Part shown: positions 44,254-55,982 of the stretch, in pieces
How positions within the stretch are numbered: the stretch's first letter is position 1
Layout: each line of letters opens with the position of its first letter
NCBI RefSeq assembly: GCF_024139115.2
Contig: NC_085139.1
Span: forward strand, 254,234,067-254,298,066
Length of the DNA stretch: 64,000 bases
Source: Armigeres subalbatus
Lineage: Eukaryota > Arthropoda > Insecta > Diptera > Culicidae
Direction of reading: 5' to 3'
Made by a program: the position numbers and the translations under genes
The notes under the pieces: model-generated
Seen by the model: the letters and a program-made list of their open reading frames with translations, nothing else
What the model was told of the DNA's origin: nothing
Databases searched by the model: none

Positions 44254-44660
44254 TTGCCAAGATTTTCCAGTAAGCAGAGCGATCGGCCGGTCGTTGAAAT
44301 TAAAGCCCCAAACGCAATACAACGGAACGGCGACGGAAACGGAAAATTTGACAGTTAGCCCATATATTTTCTGTCAAATTTGCCGTTTCCGTCGCCGTTC
44401 CGTTGTATTGCGTTTGGGGCTTAAGTTTTGCTTTGTGCGGAAAGCAAAACGATCGGCCGGTAATCGAAATTTTGTTCTGCATTGTGTGAGTGAGTGAATT
44501 AATCATAAAGTCTAAATTTGTTTCTTTCCAGTCGTGTTTCTCCAGTAAGCAGGACGACCGGCCGGACGTCGAAATTTAGTTTTGCTTTGTGCGGAAAGCA
44601 AAACGATCGGCTGGTCACCGAAATTTTGTTCTGCATTGTGCGGGGGAGTAAATTTATCAG
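44254..44660. repeat. CGATCGGCCGG-containing tandem units
   Basis: Three to four copies of a unit with (CG)ATCGGCCGGT..TCGAAATTTTGTTCTGCATTGTG and GCTTTGTGCGGAAAGCAAAAC. They lie near 44275-44300, 44425-44490, 44550-44590 and 44600-44640. The first copy is split by the palindrome at 44303-44424. Confidence 0.78.
44303..44424. mobile_element. 122-bp near-perfect palindromic MITE
   Basis: The arm AAGCCCCAAACGCAATACAA (and on to CGGAAACGG, TTTGACAG) is mirrored by its reverse complement ending TTGGGGCTT, with a 16-bp loop (TTAGCCCATATATTTT). TTAA-like ends (ATTAAAG... and ...GCTTAAG) hint at a TTAA or TA target. It splits one unit of the surrounding tandem repeat, so it inserted after that array formed. 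Confidence 0.88.
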
Positions 44661-45098
44661 AAAGTGAAAATTTAGCTCGCATCCAGTTGTGTAGTGGGGT
44701 CAATAATTTAAATAATTAGCGTTCGTTCGATTGTTTTTGTTTTAAATGAAACTACACGCTATACACGGCATACCGTTTACCAAAACGAACCCTGCCACAC
44801 TCCCTACCCCATATATCCAACATCCCAGTGATTTCTCGTGGAAGTGCAGATGACTCGTCGGCTTCTATCAAAGCGAGTATCACGTCAACAATTTCCTACC
44901 TATTCCTCAATTGACCTGCATTCGGACACGGCCGGCGCTGGTATTGCTTATTTTTGGGTCATCAGTTCTTACACATTGAAGGTGATGTTAGTCCCAAACT
45001 TCATCTGTTGGTTCTCTGTGTAATTACAGCTGACCTGGCAATAACGGAGTAGCAACCGTGGGCGGTCAATCATGCTCATGCTCATGCTCATGCTCAAA
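44661..45098. other. Unclassified sequence with ATGCTC microsatellite
   Basis: No gene seen. (CATGCT)4 lies at 45071-45095, at the edge of the ORF1 fragment of element B. It marks the breakpoint where the middle of ORF1 is lost. Confidence 0.45.
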
Positions 45099-45374: not shown

Positions 45375-45583
45375 TGTGGTAGACGCTGCTATGGATAACC
45401 TACTCTATTCTATATTGAACGATTATATGATATCACTAACACCAATGTGCTCTATGGCGAGTCAGTTGAGTAGTCTACCGATCCTCCATCTACGACTAGT
45501 CTTCTCGCGTCTTTCGTACTGTGCGGCCGTAGTCTATCAATACGTTTCGACTGATTGAATAGTTGACGAGTTCGGCTACCACA
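45375..45583 (+). repeat. 5' LTR of the gypsy element
   Basis: Begins TGTGGTAG and ends CTACCACA (8-bp inverted terminus). It differs from the 3' LTR by C/A in the CTATTCTATATTG segment and by G/A in GTGCGGCCG. A TATATTGAAC segment near its 5' third may serve as a core promoter; this is weak. Confidence 0.96.
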
Positions 45584-46813
45584 AACCGTGGCGACGAGGT
45601 GAAAAACGGCAGTGAAATTACGTGGAAAGTAGTGATAAAGGTACGTGAAAATAGTCGGGTAAAGTTCTTAGAAAGAATCCTCTAGAAACGGTGATAATAT
45701 TATGAAATGACGCCATGTTGGAAAAAGCATTTATATTGCTTACGAAAAAAAAAAATAAATATTCAATTTCAACCATTTTGTGTAAAACTGTGAAAACATT
45801 TTGGAGAGAATGTGTGTCTGGAAATGGCAAGTTATGGTCATTCGGTGGAAAATAGAAACAGGAAAGGATAATCGCCGATAAAGTGACGCCATTTTTGCAG
45901 CCCGAAAAAAAAAAAGTGAATTGCTTGTATATGTGTGAGGAACGTGATCAAAGTACAGCTCCTGAAGCGACGCTACCTCAAACCAAATAAAGTTCTGAAA
46001 CCTGTATAGGTAATTGTGAGAAACAAAAGCATTCATATGGTAACGCCATTTTTCTGGCGTGAAAAGGGGAATCTTTGTGTATGTGTGTGGAGACGGGCTA
46101 AAATTAGTGTATGTAAGGTGACGCTGTTGCGGAACAAAAGAAAATATTGAAACTTGTATACGTGAGGCGGTGAGAATCAAGAATGAAATATTCTTTACCT
46201 TCGAGCTGATCGGATACAATATTGCAGCATATGTGTCTTAGTGTCAAACGCAAATGCACTTTAAAATCAAGAAGAATGAGAAATGCGATCAATATATATT
46301 AGAAAATTGACGGTGGTTTGCAATAAGGATGATATGCGAATGCAAGCAAGAAAAAAAAAGAGAAGAAAGAAAATCTAATTAGAAGTGTGCACAGATACAT
46401 AGCACGTGCAATCGATTAAATTCCGGTTGAAAATGAAGCGAAATGTGTTTGTGTTGTTTTCAGTAACCGATTCAATTCCGGTTAGAAAATGCGACGTCAT
46501 CATCGATGAGAAGTTACCGATTAAATTACGGTTATGATGTTTGATGAATGAATCATGATAAATGGAACGTATCGTATGTGCCGAAACCGATTGAATTCCG
46601 GTTGATAAGATGAACTTCGATTATCGTGTGTTATGGAGAATATTCCTTTTGAAGTTTTATGAGAATTAAAATTGTGAAACATAAAGATCCATAAAGCTTG
46701 ACTGACATAGTGCAAATAGTATTAGGAATGCTTTGTTCTAGTGCATGGAATTATTGTTTTCCTTAAGTGATTATAGTTTTTTTTATTCAAATAGAGGAAT
46801 AATATCGGAAAAA
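45584..46813 (+). other. Long 5' untranslated leader of the gypsy element
   Basis: 1.2 kb. The first bases, AACCGTGGCGACGAGG, start right after the LTR and contain TGGCGACGAGG, the likely primer-binding site; the tRNA is not assigned. Two families of degenerate repeats follow: GTGACGCCATTTTT-like units (near 45703, 45881, 45965, 46040, 46119) and four AACCGATTNAATTCCGGTT-like units (46410-46612). No long frame. Leader repeats in other gypsy elements bind regulatory proteins; that role here is inference. Confidence 0.75.
46410..46612 (+). promoter_or_regulatory. Four quasi-palindromic AACCGATTNAATTCCGGTT sites
   Basis: Sites at about 46410-46434, 46466-46492, 46515-46539 and 46585-46612, spaced 49-70 bp. 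The core CGATT(A/C/G)AATTCCGGTT is kept in three, and the third has TTACGG. AACCG/CGGTT arms make each a near dyad, as expected for a dimeric DNA-binding protein. Function unproven. Confidence 0.5.
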
Positions 46814-47652
46814 ATGGAAGATATCGATATTAGCGAACGAGTAGTTCAACAACATGTGCAGTTCTTCAGCCCGGCGTCATACAATCTACCCCACTTTAAG
46901 TACAAGCATCTTCCGGCATCCGAAGTCAGGAATGCTTGGAATATGTGGATTCGGTGGTTTGAAAATGTTATGGCTGCGGCTAATGTATTGGAAGGACCAG
47001 CAAGAAAAATGCAGCTTTTGGCCATGGGAGGAATAGAGCTGCAGTGTGCATATTATGGCCTGCCAGGTGCTGAAGATGAAACAAACGATGATCCCAATGC
47101 ATACCTAAATGCAAAACCAGCCTGACGCAACACTTCTCGCCAAAGCACCATGAAAGCTTTGAGCGTTTTCTATTCTGGTCGTTGGCTCCTGAAGATGATG
47201 AACCGATCGAAAAGTTTTCTCTTAGAGTTCAACAAAAAGCAGAAAAGATTTGCTTCGGAAAGACGGCCAATGAGAGTCGCCATATTGCGATCATTGACAA
47301 GGTAATACAATATTCTACGGATGATTTGCGACAGAAATTGTTAGAGAAGGAGGTCCTTACGTTGGATGACACAACGAAAATTGTTAACGCACACCAAGCA
47401 GTGCGGTATCAATCCTCCAAAATGAACAGCAGCAGAGGTGATTGCCGAGCAGCCAGTAATGTCAACCACCTAGTTACGAAGAATAGTTCAACCGATGACG
47501 GAAAACCGAAATGTTTTCGTTGCGGATACAGAGCTCACCAACCTGGAGACCGATGTCCGGCAGCAAACCGAACATGCTTGCAGTGTGGTAAAGTGGGCCA
47601 TTTTCGAACAATGTGTCGTACAAAGCATGGGACGAAGCTCAACAATGAATGG
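46814..47652 (+). pseudogene. gag: gypsy gag (one frameshift)
   Basis: ATG at 46814 (MEDIDISERVV). The capsid-like region spans about 46814-47115, then a one-base shift, then ERFLFWSLAPEDDEPIEKFSLRVQQKAE continues in another frame (from about 47118). Two CCHC knuckles near 47513-47615 are CFRCGYRAHQPGDRC (5-residue spacing before the last Cys) and CLQCGKVGHFRTMC. The frame ends in the first intron: unspliced, it adds 7 codons and stops at TGA (about 47675). Gag would form the particle and package RNA. The start is chosen because the capsid similarity begins there. Confidence 0.85.
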
Positions 47653-47717
47653 GTAAGTCAGAACTTTTTTATTTGAATGCAATTTGATATTTGAATATGA
47701 GGGATACAACTATTTAG
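47653..47717 (+). other. Intron 1 of the gypsy element (65 bp)
   Basis: GTAAGT at 47653 and TATTTAG ending at 47717, with AT-rich content between and a possible branch-like TTTGATAT. Phase 0 after a Trp codon. Downstream GGATCACAG opens in the frame that leads into protease. It contains an in-frame TGA, so retention ends Gag here. Size and sites are typical of minimal insect introns. Confidence 0.8.
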
Positions 47718-48094
47718 GGATCACAGAAACGTAAGCACAGTTCAGGAGCTGGTAAAGATTATTATCGTCCGGAAAAACGCACCAGAAACGTTTTTAATGT
47801 GACTGAAAATGACAGCGACGAAACACCCGAAGATTTGCCAGTTTACAATGTGGGCGATAGAGACGATGAAGCTATTCAATGTCGTGTAGGTGGAGTTCAG
47901 ATCGTTATGTTAATCGACTCTGGATCCAAGCACAATCTAATTGACGATACAACATGGGAGCTAATGAAACTGCGAGATGTGAAGATAACCAACCAAAGAT
48001 TGGATAAGAGTAAACGATTCTTGGCGTACGGACGCATACCTTTGAAGCTCATCACAACCTTTGACGCTGAACTTGAAGTTGATGATAAGGGAAC
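47718..48094 (+). pseudogene. gypsy protease region
   Basis: In frame with gag across intron 1. A Lys/Arg/Asp-rich linker, then IQCRVGGVQIVMLIDSGSKH with the catalytic DSG (about 47915-47925), and NLIDDTTWELM. The family's ALG/DSG partner features are not clear to me. The frame stops at TGA (48099-48101). Moving back one base at ACTTGTTG joins the RT frame. No canonical slippery heptamer is visible, so I treat this as a single-base lesion. Confidence 0.85.
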
Positions 48095-49029
48095 TTGTTG
48101 AGAACTAACACCACCTTTTATGTAATTGAGAAAGGACAACAGCCGTTGATGGGAAAACTAACTGCCCAAAAACTAGGAGTCTTGACAGTCGGGCTGCCTA
48201 GCACTCGTTCTCTGTCTATTAGAAAAATTGATAGTTCATCGAAAACATTTCCCAAGATGAAGGGCATTAAATTGAACATCCCTATCGATAGGACAGTTCC
48301 TCCCGTCATTCAACCATTGCGTCGTTGTCCAATTCCACTCCTAGAAAAGGTAGAGAACAAGCTGACTGAGCTTTTAGAAATGGACATTATTGAAAGAGTA
48401 ATGAAACCAACATCATGGGTTTCACCTCTAGTTCCCATTCTGAAGGAAAATGGAGAACTGCGTTTATGTATCGACATGAGAAGAGCGAATCGAGCAATTC
48501 AGAGATTAAACCATCCGCTTCCTGTGTTTGAAGACCTTGTATCGCGTTTCCGTAATGCCAAATTTTTCACATCGCTTGACATCAAACAAGCTTTTCATCA
48601 AGTGGAATTAGCGGAGGATTGCCGTGATGTCACGACCTTTATTACGAACTGGGGGTTGTATCGTTACAAGCGTCTTTTATTTGGAATAAACTGTGCCCCT
48701 GAGCTGTTCCAAAATCTGATGGAAAGCATTCTGGGTGGATGTAGGAACACTGTTGTGTTCATAGATGACATCATGATATTCGGAGAAACTGAAGACGAGC
48801 ACGACGCGGCTGTGAAACAAACTCTACATGTCTTGAGCCAGTACGGAATATTATTGAATGACCATAAGTGCAGATTCAAACAACGCCAAGTCATGTTTGT
48901 TGGACACAAACTTTCAGCTGATGGGGTTTCCGCAAACGAAGAAAAAGTCAAATCCATCCTATCTTGCAGAGCACCACACACAAAAGAGGAGCTTAGAAGC
49001 TTTCTTGGTCTTGTGACGTATGTTTCTAG
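48095..49029 (+). CDS. gypsy reverse transcriptase, first exon part
   Basis: About 310 codons, uninterrupted. RT motifs in order: PVIQPLRRCPIPL, WVSPLVPILKENGELRLCIDMRRAN, FFTSLDIKQAFHQVEL (first catalytic Asp), FGINCAPELFQNLME, VVFIDDIMIFG (catalytic Asp pair, about 48755-48787), FVGHKLSADGV, then LRSFLGLVTYVS where intron 2 begins. Copies RNA to DNA in the particle. The domain itself is intact. Confidence 0.92.
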
Positions 49030-49088
49030 GTAAATTTCTGATTGTGTTATTTTGTTTTGATTATTTGACTTTTACTATTCATGTTTAG
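49030..49088 (+). other. Intron 2 of the gypsy element (59 bp)
   Basis: GTAAAT at 49030 and CATGTTTAG ending at 49088, preceded by a TTATTTGACTTTTACTATTC tract. Phase 2: AG before and G after give Arg, then FIPNL, the expected RT connection. Unspliced reading stops at once (TAA at 49031-49033), truncating Pol before RNase H and integrase. Confidence 0.8.
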
Positions 49089-49559
49089 GTTTATTCCAAA
49101 TCTCACAACCGTGAATTATCCTCTGAGACACCTTTTGAAACAGGATACTCCTTCGAATGGAAATCGCAACACCAAGAGTCCTTTGAACACGTTAAACGGC
49201 TTATTGGATCTGCAGGGAGTTTAGGGTTTTATGATCCGAAAGATCGTACACTGGTTATTACGGATGCATCCGGAGTAGGATTAGGGGCCGTGCTAATCCA
49301 GTTTAAAGACGCTAAACCAAGAATAATAAGTTATGCGTCTAAAAGTTTAACCGACATTGAGAAAACTTATCCGCCTATTGAAAAGGAAGCTCTAGGAGTC
49401 GTATGGGCAGTAGAAAGGTTCAAAACCTATTTGTTAGGAATCACTTTCGAGCTTGAGACTGATCATCGTCCACTAGAAACATTATTTACAGCAACATCCA
49501 GACCAACCGCAAGGATTGAGCGATGGTTGCTTCGCATTCAGGCTTTTAAATTCAAAGTA
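49089..49559 (+). pseudogene. gypsy RNase H region (one frameshift)
   Basis: Continues FIPNLTTVNYPLRHLL in the post-splice frame, shifts one base near 49153, then runs through the RNase H: LVITDASGVGLGAVLI (Asp), SYASKSLTDIEKTYPPIEKEAL (Glu), VVWAVERFKTYLLG, ETDHRPL (Asp). It is interrupted at FKFKV by the MITE. The residues after the MITE (VYRKGSANLADCLSRL) are the expected RNase H end. Confidence 0.88.
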
Positions 49560-50084
49560 CCGTCAACTGGGGGGAAGATGATCATTTTTAAGACAAAACA
49601 TGCAATAACAATGTGTGTTTACATTTTAAATCGAAACAAATATTTTCAAAACATGTACTGCTATACGTTGCAATAATCAACAACTTTAGTTTTCTGAAAT
49701 GCGTTCGCATTTATTAAAATAAATTAAATTATCACACATTTTTTGAATAATCTGGTTTGGGGTGAAGTTGATCAAGACAGCTCTACTAAAACCATTATGA
49801 CCTAGTACACTAGCTTATTTGTATGAATGTTGAATTTACTACGTAAAGAAGTCTAAGAAATCAATATTTGAAACGAAAATAGCGTATTTGTGACTATCTC
49901 TCTCTTTCTTCCACAAAATACATTTTCATGATTATAATCGAAAAACTCGGATTTCTACCTAGCGGTAACATTACTTGAACGAAGAATATTGTTGACTACC
50001 GTTTCATAAAAAAATTTGGCACTTTTGACTGACACATCAAATGATCATCTTCACCTCAATGATCATCTTCCCCCCAGTTGACGG
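49560..50084. mobile_element. 525-bp TA-flanked MITE inside gypsy pol
   Basis: Perfect inverted termini of at least 25 bp beginning CCGTCAACTGGGGGGAAGAT and ending with the complement. A second GATCATCTTC motif lies just inside the right end. TA duplication at 49558-49559 and 50085-50086. Removal of the insert and one TA rejoins the frame (GTA then GTATATCGC). It has no coding capacity. Youngest layer of the stack. Confidence 0.95.
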
Positions 50085-50086
50085 TA

Positions 50087-51228
50087 GTATATCGCAAGGG
50101 TTCTGCCAATCTGGCCGATTGTTTGTCTAGACTAGCAGCTCATGTTGACGATCCAAACTGGACCGAAGAAACAGATATGTACATAAGGCGTGTCATGGTA
50201 CATTCTCTGTCAACTCTCTACGATAGACGAACGAAGTTTTGATTCGGAAACTGAAGAAATAATCAGAGTTGTTCAAGAGTATGCTGCAATCGATATTGAA
50301 GAAGTGGTAAGGGCAACAGAATCGGATCAGGATTTACAAAATTTGATCAAAAGTATTGAAACTGATAAATGGGATCTGGAAAATCTGAAGCAGTATAAAC
50401 CATTCCGTTTAGAACTTTCCTACATTAACAAGCTAGTTATGCGGGGAACTAAATTAGTGATCCCAAATTCGTTACGAACAAGGATGTGTGAATTGGCTCA
50501 CGAGGGACATCCCGGCCAATCAATGATGAATAGGAGGCTTCGAGAGCGATGCTGGTGGCCGGGAATCGATCAAGATACGGTGAAGTTCTGCGAGAGGTGG
50601 GAAGGTTGCCAGCTAGTACAATCTAGTGATCCTCCAGAGCCAATGATGCGACGTGCACTCCCAGAAAAGCCCTGGGTCGACTTAGCAATGGACTTTTTGG
50701 GCCCTATGCCATCTGGTGATTATCTTTTAGTTGTGATTGACTACTATAGTCGGTATATTGAGATCGTAATAATGAACCGTATAACTGCGCAAGACACCAT
50801 TAAAAGCTTGAAGCAAATGTTTAGGACATGGGGTCCACCCAGAACATTAACTCTTGATAACGCGAAACAGTTTGTTTCGACGGAATTTAAGGAATTTTGC
50901 TCAAATAACGGAATACATCTCAATCACACTACGCCATATTGGCCACAAGCAAATGGCGAAGTGGAACGGCAAAACCGGTCCCTATTGAAACGGATGAGAA
51001 TCGCCCACGCTTTACATGACAACTGGAAAGCCGAACTTGAACATTATTTGAATTTGTACAACAATACGCCACACACCATAACCGGAAAAGCTCCAAGCGA
51101 ACTGCTGCAGGGAAGAAAATTACGATCAAAATTGCCCCAGGTAGATGACCTTGAAACAGTACCCCCAAGCACTGATTTCAGAGACCAAGACATGGCTAAA
51201 AAGATCCAGCAGAAAGAGAGAGGATACT
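50087..51228 (+). pseudogene. gypsy integrase (one frameshift, one altered zinc-binding residue)
   Basis: After the RNase H end a one-base shift near 50215 leads to the main frame (to 51230). The zinc-binding region has ELAHEGHPGQS, CWWPGID, then CERWEGCQLV: the family normally has a C-x2-C pair here and Trp replaces the first Cys. Catalytic core: MDFLGPMPSGD (Asp), LTLDNAKQF (Asp), PYWPQANGEVERQNR (Glu), the DDE set. YNNTPHTITGKAPSELL ends the core. Integrates the cDNA. Confidence 0.88.
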
Positions 51229-51690
51229 AGAAGAAGAGCTAAACCCAACGACATCTCCACAGGTGATACTGTTCTCATGAAAAACCTTCTTCCGTCGAAT
51301 AAGTTAGCTACGCCCTTCCTGAATGAGAAGTTTACAGTATTAGGCCGAAATGGTTCAAACGTAACTGTGCAGTCCAATAGCTCAGGAAAACAATTCGATA
51401 GAAATATTTCACATCTTAAGAAATGGAACGGATCATCGGATGCTGATATTGGGGGACCTGTGGAGTCGGGGGAAAAAGCTTCGCATACCAGGCAGCTATT
51501 AGAAGCTAATCATCTAGCAGAGTCATCTCATCCAGAAAGCCCTGTGAGTGTGGCACCTCCACCAGAACCAACAAGGCGTTCGCTGCACAGTCAGACCTGC
51601 AGTCAGATTCAGTCCGTAAAGATAAGTAACATTTCATTCTTAATGTATCTAACCAATATATTTAATTATTTTGAAATAATAAATCTCTAA
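51200..51690 (+). pseudogene. gypsy integrase C-terminal tail (separate frame)
   Basis: A one-base shift near 51215 moves to a frame with RRRAKPNDISTGDTVLMKNLL, KLATPFLNEKFTVLGRNGSNVTVQS and DRNISHLKKW: the SH3-like fold that follows many gypsy integrase cores. Then a Pro/Ser/Glu-rich end to a stop at 51690, 18 bp before the 3' LTR. No env frame. Confidence 0.8.
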
Positions 51691-51698
51691 AAAATAGT

Positions 51699-51708
51699 AA
51701 AAGAGGGA
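51699..51708 (+). promoter_or_regulatory. Polypurine tract
   Basis: AAAAGAGGGA directly precedes the 3' LTR and would prime plus-strand DNA synthesis. Confidence 0.85.
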
Positions 51709-51917
51709 TGTGGTAGACGCTGCTATGGATAACCTACTCTATTATATATTGAACGATTATATGATATCACTAACACCAATGTGCTCTATGGCGAGTCAGT
51801 TGAGTAGTCTACCGATCCTCCATCTACGACTAGTCTTCTCGCGTCTTTCGTACTGTGCAGCCGTAGTCTATCAATACGTTTCGACTGATTGAATAGTTGA
51901 CGAGTTCGGCTACCACA
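51709..51917 (+). repeat. 3' LTR of the gypsy element
   Basis: 209 bp, 207 identical to the 5' LTR. Followed by the CGTT target duplicate. Confidence 0.96.
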
Positions 51918-52010: not shown

Positions 52011-52580
52011 AATCCCCCTTCCCTACTCTACCAGTTTCTCGCTATTATATTCGGCGGACGTTGGAAATCGGAATAGATTAACAACGGCCACCCGTTGTTT
52101 ACCCCAGAACGTTAGAATAGACAAATACTAAAGATTTCCTATCTTGTGTTCCTTCAACGTCGTGTATGAAACGTCTGATAACAGTCAAAGGTAGTTTTTT
52201 TTAACTACCTTGCCGAACTTTTCGCCAAGAATCGCAAAACAGGATAGTTTTGATTTGAAAACTTTCACTCACTCGGGTTACGCACCGTCGAAGCTTCAAT
52301 GAACCACCGTAAGCAACCCAACACCTATGTGTTAGCGGCCTGTTGTTTTGCCGGTTCATTGCGGTAGAAGCACTATTTCACTCACTTTTGCACACACTAA
52401 TTTTGATGTTTTTTCACCGATCTTGGTCGGGTTTTTGGTTGTTTCACTAATTGGCACTAATTCCTAGCCGACGATTGGCTTTTATGCGCGATCCGGCCGC
52501 GAAAACCACCAAAAGAATCGATATAATTCCGAGCGCGATACAGTCACTCTGCAACAAACACAGTGTCCCGAGCTCGAATG
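52011..52580 (-). other. 5' UTR of element B
   Basis: About 570 bp, the same length as in element A and with matching blocks near the ORF1 start. It ends at CTCGAATG, next to the right TSD copy TTGATTATT (52581-52589). Like A it appears complete at the 5' end. Confidence 0.75.
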
Positions 52581-52589
52581 TTGATTATT

Positions 52590-54961
52590 GGCGATTATAA
52601 TCTACCCCATTTATGTTGGATGCACGACGAAGAAATAGATTCTTTATTGCCAGTAAACGCCTGCTCTAAGCAAGAAATCACGCTTGTGGAAACTGTCATT
52701 GGCTGCGGGCTTCATCAAATTAATGATTTCTGCAATGTGAATGGGCGACTCCTTGATCTGGCATTCGTCAACGAGAAAAAACTTTTCGAGTTACTCGAGC
52801 CACCGTTGCCATTGCTCCGTATCGATAATCATCACAAGCCTTTAGTGTTGACATTTGCAACCGCAGATAAGTGTAACGATGATTGGAATTCAGAAGACCC
52901 TTTAGATTTTGGTTTTCGTCAATGTGACTTTGTATTGCTGAAGGCATTAACTTCTGCCGTTCGCTGGGACGAATGTCTCTATGGGTGCAATATTAACGAG
53001 GCCGTAACAAATTTCTACCAACGAGTGTTTTCCATTGTCCGAGATGTAGTCCCGACGAAACAACGATGCTACCTATGAGGAAAAGACAGCCTTGGTGGAA
53101 CAGAGAGCTACAGCATCTCCGTAACCGTTTGCGTAAAGCTAGGAAGCGATATTTCCGTTCAAGGGATGAACAACGCAAAGTTGAGCTGCGTGACATAGAG
53201 AGCAAATACAACTCTTTGCACGCGCAATGCTTTAGCGGCTATATTCATTGTCCGGAAGAAAACTTTAAACGACATCCAACATCATTCTGGTCGTTCGTAA
53301 GACGTCGAAAACAGACGAGCGGAATCCCTCAACGAATTAGTTACCACGAAGCTATTGCTGAAACAACCCTCGAATCAGCTAATTTGTTCTCGTCGTTCTT
53401 TCGAAGCGTGTTAAGTAATAACCGATCACCTTCGTCTGAAGAGTACTTGAGCAGTTTGCCTCGATACGAATTGAGTATACCGCCATTCAACTTTTCTCCG
53501 GAGGATGTGTCCAGCAAACTCCGAGGTATAAATGACTCCAAAGGTGCTGGACCCGATCGTCTACCCCCGCTTTTCATCAAGAACTGTGCCGATTCACTGA
53601 CTCTACCTGCGACTATTCTCTTTAATCGTTCTTTGACGGAAGGTATATTTCCTAGTGCATGGAAATCTGCTGACATCACTCCCGTACATAAAGCTGGCAG
53701 TTTGCACAACGTCGAAAATTACCGTGGAATCTCTATTTTGAGCTGTCTACCGAAGGTTTTTGAAAGCCTTATCCACGATGCGCTTTACCCACAAGTGCAT
53801 CATATTATTTCGGAATTTCAACATGGATTCGTGAAGAAACGTTCTACCACTTGGTGAAATCGCTTGATAAGCAACAGCAAATTGATGCCATTTATATCGA
53901 TTTTGCCAAAGCGTTTGATAGAATGCCTCACACTTTGGAAGTAGAAAAGCTGGACAAAATGGGTCTACCTACCTGGTTGACGAGCTGGGTGCTTTCGTAT
54001 CTTACGGAACGTAGCGCTTGCGTACGCATTGGCGAAACTAAGTCGGACTCTTTCCCTATCACATCTGGTGTGCAGTCAGTTATCTTGGCCCACATCTTTT
54101 TGTATTGTTTGTCAACGATCTCTGCATTGCAATTAAATCTCCAAAGCTAATGTTTGCCGATGACTTAAAATTCTTTTGTGTAGTGTCATCAGTTGCTGAG
54201 TGCTATGCTATCCAAGCCGACATTGACACATTACCTAACTGGTGTAAGTTGAACGAAATGGAAGTAAATGTCAAGAAGTGTAATGCGATTTCATTTTGTC
54301 GAACGAGGAATGCAACTGTTTTCAACCATACGATGTGATCTGCCAGCATCGCCCGAGTTAACACTGTCAAGGATCTTGGAGTACTACTGGATGAAAAACT
54401 CAATTTTGCTCAGTAACGACTGCAAAAGCTTACGCAGTGCTTGGTTTCATAAAGCGCAATACGCAGCAGTTTACCGACGTCTATAGTCTGAAGTCACTCT
54501 ACTGTGCACTTGTACGGAGCATTCTTGAATATGGTGTGCTGGTCTGGGCACCATATCAGGCCGTTAACACCAACCGGATCGAACGAATTCAAAGAAATTT
54601 CCTTCGTTTCGCTCTTCGCCTCCTGCCATGGAATGATCCCGTTCGTTTGCCACCATATGAGCATCGTTGCGCCTTGGTACATCTGCCAACTTTGGCTAGC
54701 AGGAGGATTCTCTTGCAGCGCTTATTCGTGTTTGACATATTAAGCAGCAACTTCGACTGCTTGGAACTTTTGAACAACATCGATCTCAACGTTCTGGCTA
54801 GAAATACTCGACGTGCAGAATTCCTTCGTCTTCCTGTTCATCGTACTGTTTTTGGGCAAAACAACCCTTTCAATGTTTGTTGTCGTCGTTTTAACGAAGT
54901 GTCTGCGAAATTTGATTTTAATTTGTCCAAGTTAATGTTTAGAAATAGGATTAGTGAATAG
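52590..54961 (+). pseudogene. Element C, rest of endonuclease and reverse transcriptase (frameshifted)
   Basis: Resumes GDYNLPHLCW and QINDFCNVNGRLLDLAFV (to about 53075). After a shift: RKRQPWWNRELQHLR, GAGPDRLPPLFIKNC, ITPVHKAG, NYRGISIL, FQHGFVKKRSTT (to 53855). Then IYIDFAKAFDRMPH (catalytic Asp), SGVQ (53870-54080; the PQG after SGV is damaged), LFVNDLCIA, LMFADDLKFF (catalytic pair, about 54145-54175), and after more damage (54340-54430) the C-terminus YGVLVWAPYQAVN, RIERIQRNFLRFALRLLPW to the stop at 54960. No RNase H. At least four breaks. Confidence 0.87.
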
Positions 54962-55022: not shown

Positions 55023-55982
55023 AAAAATCATGGTGACACCTGTTCCAGAACAGGCCAACAATAGGTTTCTTTGAATTGACCTCTTGGGATCCGGCCCCAA
55101 AATGGCCAGTTCAATACTTCCGCTCCATATTAGCAATATGGGTATCAAACTTGAGCATTTTGCAAGACAAGTGGAACTATGGTATTCGGATATGATGCTG
55201 GGGAAATTGTCCACCCTGTGGTCAGTTTCGAGGCTCTTGAGAAGCATCAAAATCGGCCATTTTCGAAATGTCACAAACTATGGCAATATGGGTATTGGGT
55301 ATCAAGATTCAGCATTTTGCAAGACAATGTTATCCGGATATGATTCTGGGGATATTGGCATGAAGGCAGTTCCGTGGTCCTTCGAGGAGCTTCCGGAGGC
55401 ATCAAAGTTGGGCATTTTCAAAATACTACAAACTATAGCATTATGGGTATCAAGCATCAACGTTTTGCAAAACAAGTGGAATTGTGACATACAAATATCT
55501 TTCTGGGGATATTGGCCACACTAAGAGAGTCCGAAATGGGTATCAATCAGACCTCAGTGTGGTATTTTGAAAATGGCCGATTTTGATGCTTCCTGAAGCG
55601 CCTTTTAGAGCCTCGGAACTTACTTCAGAATGACCAGTATCCCCAGAAACTTATCCGAAAGTCATAATTCGACTTATCTTGCAAGGTGCTGAAGTTTGAT
55701 ACCCATATTGCCAACGTTTATGATATTTCGAGAATGGCCGATTTTAATGCTTCCGGAGTCTTCCTCAAGGGCCTCGGAACTGACCCCAGGGTGGCTAATG
55801 TCCCCAGAATCATATCCGGACAACATAATTCTACTTGTCTTGCAAAACGCTGAAGTTTGATACCCATGTTGCTAATATGGAGGGAAAATATTGAACTGCC
55901 CTTTTTAAGGCCGGTTCCTAAAGAGTCACTTCAAAGAGACCTGTTGTTGGCCGTTTCTGGAACAGGTGTCACCATGATTTTT
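55023..55982. mobile_element. 960-bp fold-back element
   Basis: Starts AAAAATCATGGTGACACC and ends with its complement. The arms match with moderate divergence for at least 300 bp (TTCCAGAACAGGCCAACA versus TTCCAGAAACGGCCAACA). The interior alternates AAGTTTGATACCCATATTGC-type blocks and TTGCAAGACAAG blocks in both orientations. It shares AAGTTTGATACCCATATTG with the 21532-23760 fold-back. No coding capacity. Confidence 0.85.

Follow-up and report, generated by a model that had tools for sequence, protein, structure and literature searches.

Introns in a Ty3/gypsy element of Armigeres subalbatus

How an element that multiplies through RNA could keep spliceosomal introns, and what use it might make of them, is the question raised by a long terminal repeat (LTR) retrotransposon located in a 64,000-nucleotide (nt) stretch of the Armigeres subalbatus genome (contig NC_085139.1, positions 254,234,067 to 254,298,066 of the forward strand; hereafter the window, to which all positions given below refer). 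RNA-copying retroelements should tend to lose introns, and an intron position shared across families suggests that the retained intron has a role. The element in question (45375-51917) is a recent but broken copy of a Ty3/gypsy family and contains two segments with intron-like ends. In view of the sequence comparisons described here, it is probable that unspliced RNA of such elements provides Gag as well as the genome, that spliced RNA provides Gag-Pol, and that the second intron was gained once, later, in elements which already used spliced RNA for Pol.

The first segment (intron 1, 47653-47717, + strand; GTAAGT...TTTAG) is 65 nt long and in phase 0, and the Gag frame stops at its eighth codon. 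The second one (intron 2, 49030-49088, + strand; GTAAAT...TTTAG) is 59 nt long and in phase 2, with the donor itself forming the stop codon (...YVSR, then stop). Both had been delimited with exactly these ends, lengths and phases in an initial annotation made from the sequence alone, and their reported placement relative to the encoded domains was confirmed by the reading frames and Pfam matches. Intron 1 separates the C-terminal gag piece, which bears two zinc knuckles and ends exon 1 at its last position (47128-47652, + strand), from the start of exon 2 and the protease region (47718-48098, + strand). One knuckle was matched by Pfam upstream of intron 1 (E 0.024, below the cut-off), the first knuckle being seen by eye only, and an aspartyl protease was matched downstream (E 0.0016, also below the cut-off). 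Intron 2 parts the reverse transcriptase (RT) core (RVT_1, 48089-49029, + strand; E 6.6e-31) from the connection and RNase H coding region (49089-49557, + strand; E 6.7e-31).

A scan of 46814-51226 with a loose donor pattern for donor-acceptor pairs of 50-80 nt returned only six such pairs, AT content being highest in the two called introns (0.74 and 0.78 versus 0.51-0.59 in the flanks); an alternative acceptor for intron 1 is possible 9 nt downstream (47726). Apart from the GT...AG ends and the AT-richness, the segments share with spliceosomal introns a frame that is continuous where the segment is missing. The earlier claim that removal of each segment joins the flanking frames is borne out for intron 2 by the genomic DNA of 12 intron-free loci, whereas for intron 1 it has the backing of two pairs of predicted proteins only. 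Conservation in other families is stronger evidence than either composition or the chance test, and by these comparisons both segments are spliceosomal introns, predicted to be removed from the RNA.

Sister copies of the family

A search of the genomic DNA with the intron 1 region led to four places including the window, the counts being lower bounds. Both introns are present in the window copy and in all three sister copies found (4/4), and the explanation by copy-specific insertion, a possibility raised in the initial annotation, was rejected on this ground. As anticipated there, the splice sites are identical across the four copies and the interiors vary by substitutions and indels, intron 1 being 64 or 65 nt and intron 2 55 or 59 nt long. 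The window copy and two of the sisters are flanked by target duplications of their own (CGTT, GTTAC and GCCTG), and the fourth copy lies on a short contig. All of these insertions still contain the introns and were therefore copied from unspliced RNA, in line with the original suggestion; the description of the window copy as young is likewise fair as far as the age of the LTRs is concerned, with 2 differences between them in 209 bp.

Intron 1 in related families

The RT region as query retrieved 24 places, comprising the four family copies, three repeats (L027-L029, identical to L020, L021 and L017) and 17 other loci. Eight of the 17 lack a readable second knuckle (L013 has the end of a miniature inverted-repeat transposable element (MITE) there, and rearrangement or truncation affects L017 and L018), and a phase-0 intron follows the second knuckle in each of the nine readable ones. 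With the Gag exon as query, 15 places were obtained: the four family copies, five loci already found (by coordinates, L036, L037, L041, L044 and L045 are L014, L016, L022, L023 and L026) and six new ones. The donor is present in five of these six, and a readable acceptor and exon 2 in three; the incomplete loci have lost the acceptor (L038), are cut (L043) or bear a deletion (L040). In L040 (G000:C3) the second knuckle is joined directly to sequence that by eye looks like the 3' portion of pol; the intron seems to have been lost within a large internal deletion.

Taken together, the second knuckle can be read in 19 genomic copies belonging to about eight families as grouped by eye; 18 of these copies have an in-frame donor, 16 a complete phase-0 intron, and none lacks the intron cleanly. 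Intron 1 thus occupies a single homologous position in related families of the same genome, a few codons past the second zinc knuckle and ahead of the protease, and its interior in other families is 37-58% identical to that of the window copy in global alignment. In the 13 copies measured it is between 57 and 121 nt long, each of the three remainders modulo 3 being represented, and the Gag frame stops inside it in 12 of them, the exception being the sister copy L007. The Gag/Gag-Pol switch by intron 1, put forward as a possibility in the initial annotation, is the best-supported reading of these sequences.

Gag and Pol could alternatively be joined by frameshifting or stop read-through, in which case the segments would never be spliced; indeed, +1 frameshifting is used by most Gypsy elements according to the excerpted text of PMC3735527. 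This explanation is, however, most improbable and was rejected, because intron 1 occurs in lengths of every remainder with an in-frame stop in nearly all measured copies, and intron 2 adds a second stop within RT.

Among 45 matches to predicted Gag proteins, 40 have a readable second knuckle and the other five were left out. In 38 of the 40 the sequence switches, 5-13 codons past the second knuckle, to a tail beginning with V-S, V-G, V-R or similar, as these residues are dictated by a GTAAGT-like donor; the tails themselves appear mutually unrelated by eye. The two exceptions are P0118, with V-I at this point, and P0115, a gene model that continues into the protease. A wider search allowing longer proteins gave 55 matches, namely 42 that are Gag-only by length and 13 that run on, the latter consisting of nine NCBI records and four contig-derived sequences (P0134, P0136, P0146 and P0148). 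Two pairs are informative as to the junction: KANVDRT-VRIDC of P0141 corresponds to KANMDRT-ATKRRH of the run-on protein P0146 (87% alike), and RSKPTTNN-VGIHI of P0132 to RSKPPMNN-ASQDRK of the run-on protein P0134, each run-on protein continuing at the same residue. P0134, when set against P0133, also runs on at the same point.

Altogether, the scoring placed the end of 49 predicted Gag proteins within intron 1. A Gag tree of 69 rows (50 with the intron, 16 running on, nine of these from NCBI, and 3 unclear), for which the bootstrap had not settled, requires 12 changes for the run-on rows versus a mean of 14.5 after shuffling, a value about as low being reached in 22-25 of 500 shuffles. The run-on rows are partly scattered, as expected from spliced RNA or repeated losses, and those of distant kin lie at the base. 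The RT search, too, recovered distant relatives that run on, and therefore intron 1 probably belongs to the present clade and not to all its kin.

Distribution and origin of intron 2

The end of RT is readable in 16 of the 17 other loci. Intron 2 occurs at the homologous place and in the same phase in three of them (L012, L014 and L016), and among the remaining 13, 12 continue YVSR-FIPNL or a near variant without the intron and one is rearranged. An RT tree was calculated from 43 rows, eight with intron 2 (the locus L016 included, L012 and L014 not) and 35 without it, nine of the latter being genomic DNA and the remainder predicted proteins; matches of ≤44% identity, of insufficient length, or whose end was ambiguous, such as P0026, were excluded. 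All eight intron 2 rows fall on one side of a single branch (support 99/96; 99% of 200 bootstrap trees), which corresponds to one change. One gain is the simplest history suggested by this tree; intron 2 appears to have been acquired later, in one sub-clade only, and not as part of the original switch. As relatives without it exist in the same genome, intron 2 offers a clear instance of a probable gain.

A third product might also arise if intron 1 were removed and intron 2 kept, that is, Gag-protease-RT core ending in YVSR, devoid of RNase H and integrase. The donor of intron 2 is a stop codon in the window family as well as in L012, L014 and L016, and the predicted proteins P0001-P0004 and P0012 terminate exactly at this donor; P0005, however, extends 26 residues further, and a phase-2 donor of the form AG-GTAA or AG-GTGA yields a stop without any selection. 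Such a product is considered unlikely.

Selection on Pol

Comparison of the window copy with other families gave proportions of synonymous (pS) and nonsynonymous (pN) differences of 0.83-0.93 and 0.145-0.237 for RT (seven comparisons; two loci with stops excluded), and of 0.76-0.94 and 0.121-0.285 for RNase H (eight comparisons; three excluded), synonymous change being saturated in both regions and hence no ratio calculated. L016, which shares intron 2 and was measured on RNase H only, showed pS 0.79 and pN 0.139 against the window. To judge from these values, strong purifying selection on RT and RNase H, on either side of intron 2 and downstream of both introns, is plain.

This bears on the notion that the copies are non-autonomous, the segments being non-coding inserts that kill Pol, which would then be borrowed from other elements. 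The window copy is indeed broken, and frame breaks or stops occur in several of the loci examined. On the other side stand the position and phase of intron 1, constant across about eight families whose intron interiors are unrelated, and the selection downstream of both introns. Dead inserts are accordingly very improbable, and this explanation was rejected in view of selection on Pol and the spread over families.

A proposed Gag/Gag-Pol switch

Returning to the proposed division between unspliced and spliced RNA, RNA that keeps intron 1 would be translated into Gag, ending in the intron or just past it, and the same RNA would serve as the genome. RNA from which both introns have been removed would give Gag-Pol, the Gag:Pol ratio being set by the frequency of intron removal. 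With Gag cut off by intron 1 and RT by intron 2, Pol of the two-intron families should need spliced RNA; since selection indicates that Pol is made, we infer that spliced RNA must exist. Spliced RNA for Pol together with an unspliced template would mean two RNA pools. Introns would persist in new copies because unspliced RNA serves as the genome, and intron 2, arriving once and later where Pol already came from spliced RNA, would have been tolerated for that very reason.

Several points weigh against this scheme. Splicing is a deduction from DNA and predicted proteins, and no signal keeping RNA unspliced turned up, although no search aimed at such a signal was made. The sister copy L007 is without an in-frame stop in intron 1, its frame leaving the intron out of register, and in L040 the donor is gone through the deletion. 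A V[SGRKN] pair occurs in 61.5% of shuffled Gag tails; the motif is weak alone, and the argument is carried by the genomic DNA. Among the run-on rows the junction is readable by eye only in the two pairs mentioned. Run-on proteins may derive from transcripts already spliced, from gene models or from elements that lack the intron; should P0134, P0136, P0146 or P0148 be of genomic origin, copies cleanly lacking the intron exist elsewhere. Moreover, three rows of the Gag tree are unclear (P0118, P0143 and P0144), and P0115, a gene model, is of the run-on type.

A passive form, compatible with the proposed scheme, would consist of real introns that are spliced inefficiently and without control, so that the Gag:Pol ratio is simply the leak rate. 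Its chances appear somewhat short of even: the introns are short and AT-rich with ordinary sites, and no control element is known here, but freely packaged spliced RNA should yield some clean intron-lacking copies, and there are none among the 19, a small sample. A more far-reaching version, according to which the whole mosquito Ty3/gypsy clade swapped recoding for element-controlled intron retention, spliced RNA being barred from copying, and one sub-clade then gained an intron in pol, is entertained tentatively and is less likely than not. If true, it would amount to the birth of an intron in a selfish element, placeable on the tree of that element. The clade is also suited to the question of how part of the RNA of an animal element stays unspliced, is exported and is packaged.

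Relation to known systems

Arkhipova et al. 2003, cited in PMC5718144, reportedly dealt with introns in invertebrate retroelements, to go by the title. The elements concerned are said to be Penelope-like, without LTRs of the present kind. Splicing as a means of adjusting Gag and Pol is known from the plant Ty3/gypsy element Ogre (Tat lineage), in which, according to the excerpted text of PMC6317226, an intron between Gag-protease and the remainder is spliced from part of the RNA. The present clade resembles Ogre in the use of partial splicing for Gag versus Pol. It differs in that the Ogre spacer, with a mean length of 274 bp, separates Gag-protease from RT-RNase H-integrase, whereas intron 1 precedes the protease and is 57-121 nt long in the 13 copies measured, as well as in the additional intron between RT and RNase H and in the mosquito hosts. 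No intron lies between protease and RT, as it does in Ogre, since intron 1 is situated before the protease and intron 2 past the RT core. The clade is best described as a Ty3/gypsy element working like Ogre without being an Ogre. The initial annotation had regarded the arrangement as unrecognised for this group, a view to be qualified in so far as Ogre is reported to follow the same principle.

Splicing also sets Gag versus Gag-Pol in the Ty1/copia elements copia, BARE1 and EVD, as far as described in the excerpts of PMC3735527 and PMC8892269, where the polarity is opposite to that proposed here: spliced RNA gives Gag and unspliced RNA Gag-Pol. In the case of Cer1 of C. elegans, a Gypsy/Ty3-related element, the unspliced genomic RNA must leave the nucleus despite its splice sites, for which a factor is needed (excerpt of PMC10309623). 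The export of unspliced genomic RNA holding splice sites would be common to Cer1 and the present clade; unlike the latter, Cer1 as described there has no stop between gag and pol, and its splicing makes the export factor CERV. In PMC3286476, PMC3026039 and PMC5248466, which deal with mosquito LTR elements or element proteins, none of the passages on introns or splicing mentions an intron inside an element, and no report of this arrangement in an animal was present among the open-licence literature matches listed, judged by title or the start of the abstract.

Structure of the window copy and its surroundings

The element begins with the 5' LTR (45375-45583, 209 bp, TGTGG...CCACA) and ends with the 3' LTR (51709-51917, 99.0% identity to the 5' LTR), and is bounded by the CGTT duplication. 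An N-terminal reading-frame piece of gag without a Pfam match is located at 46814-47122 and the integrase (H2C2 zinc domain and rve core) at 50187-51227, all of these on the + strand. The order of protease (below the Pfam cut-off), RT, RNase H and integrase between LTRs of the TG...CA type, with target duplications of 4-5 bp at three copies, is that of Ty3/gypsy elements. Among solved structures, RT is nearest to Ty3, with 4ol8 (named RT/RNase H) at E 7.4e-35 and 7q5b (named Ty3-G Gag-Pol) at E 5.9e-34; 4ol8 is presumably Ty3 as well. The element may belong to the mag lineage, as suggested by the label K02A2.6-like. The coding parts of the window copy are spread over several reading frames, a defect that, like the insert described next, goes unmentioned in the initial annotation.

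Between RNase H and the integrase there is a MITE-like insert of 529 bp (49558-50086, no strand assigned), which is not part of the element, has exact 29-bp inverted ends including the TA at its borders, and is missing from all three sister copies. L013, which belongs to another family, has the same MITE terminal sequence approximately 100 nt ahead of its exon 2.

A blastn search against a phage collection gave no match. The region adjoining the 3' LTR (52527-54961) contains broken frames with weak endonuclease and RT Pfam matches below the cut-off, and is probably an old non-LTR retrotransposon. Further downstream, a 155-nt unit is present in two direct copies that are 77% alike (55560-55875), and upstream of the element two 99-nt direct repeats, 88% alike, are located at 44421-44673.
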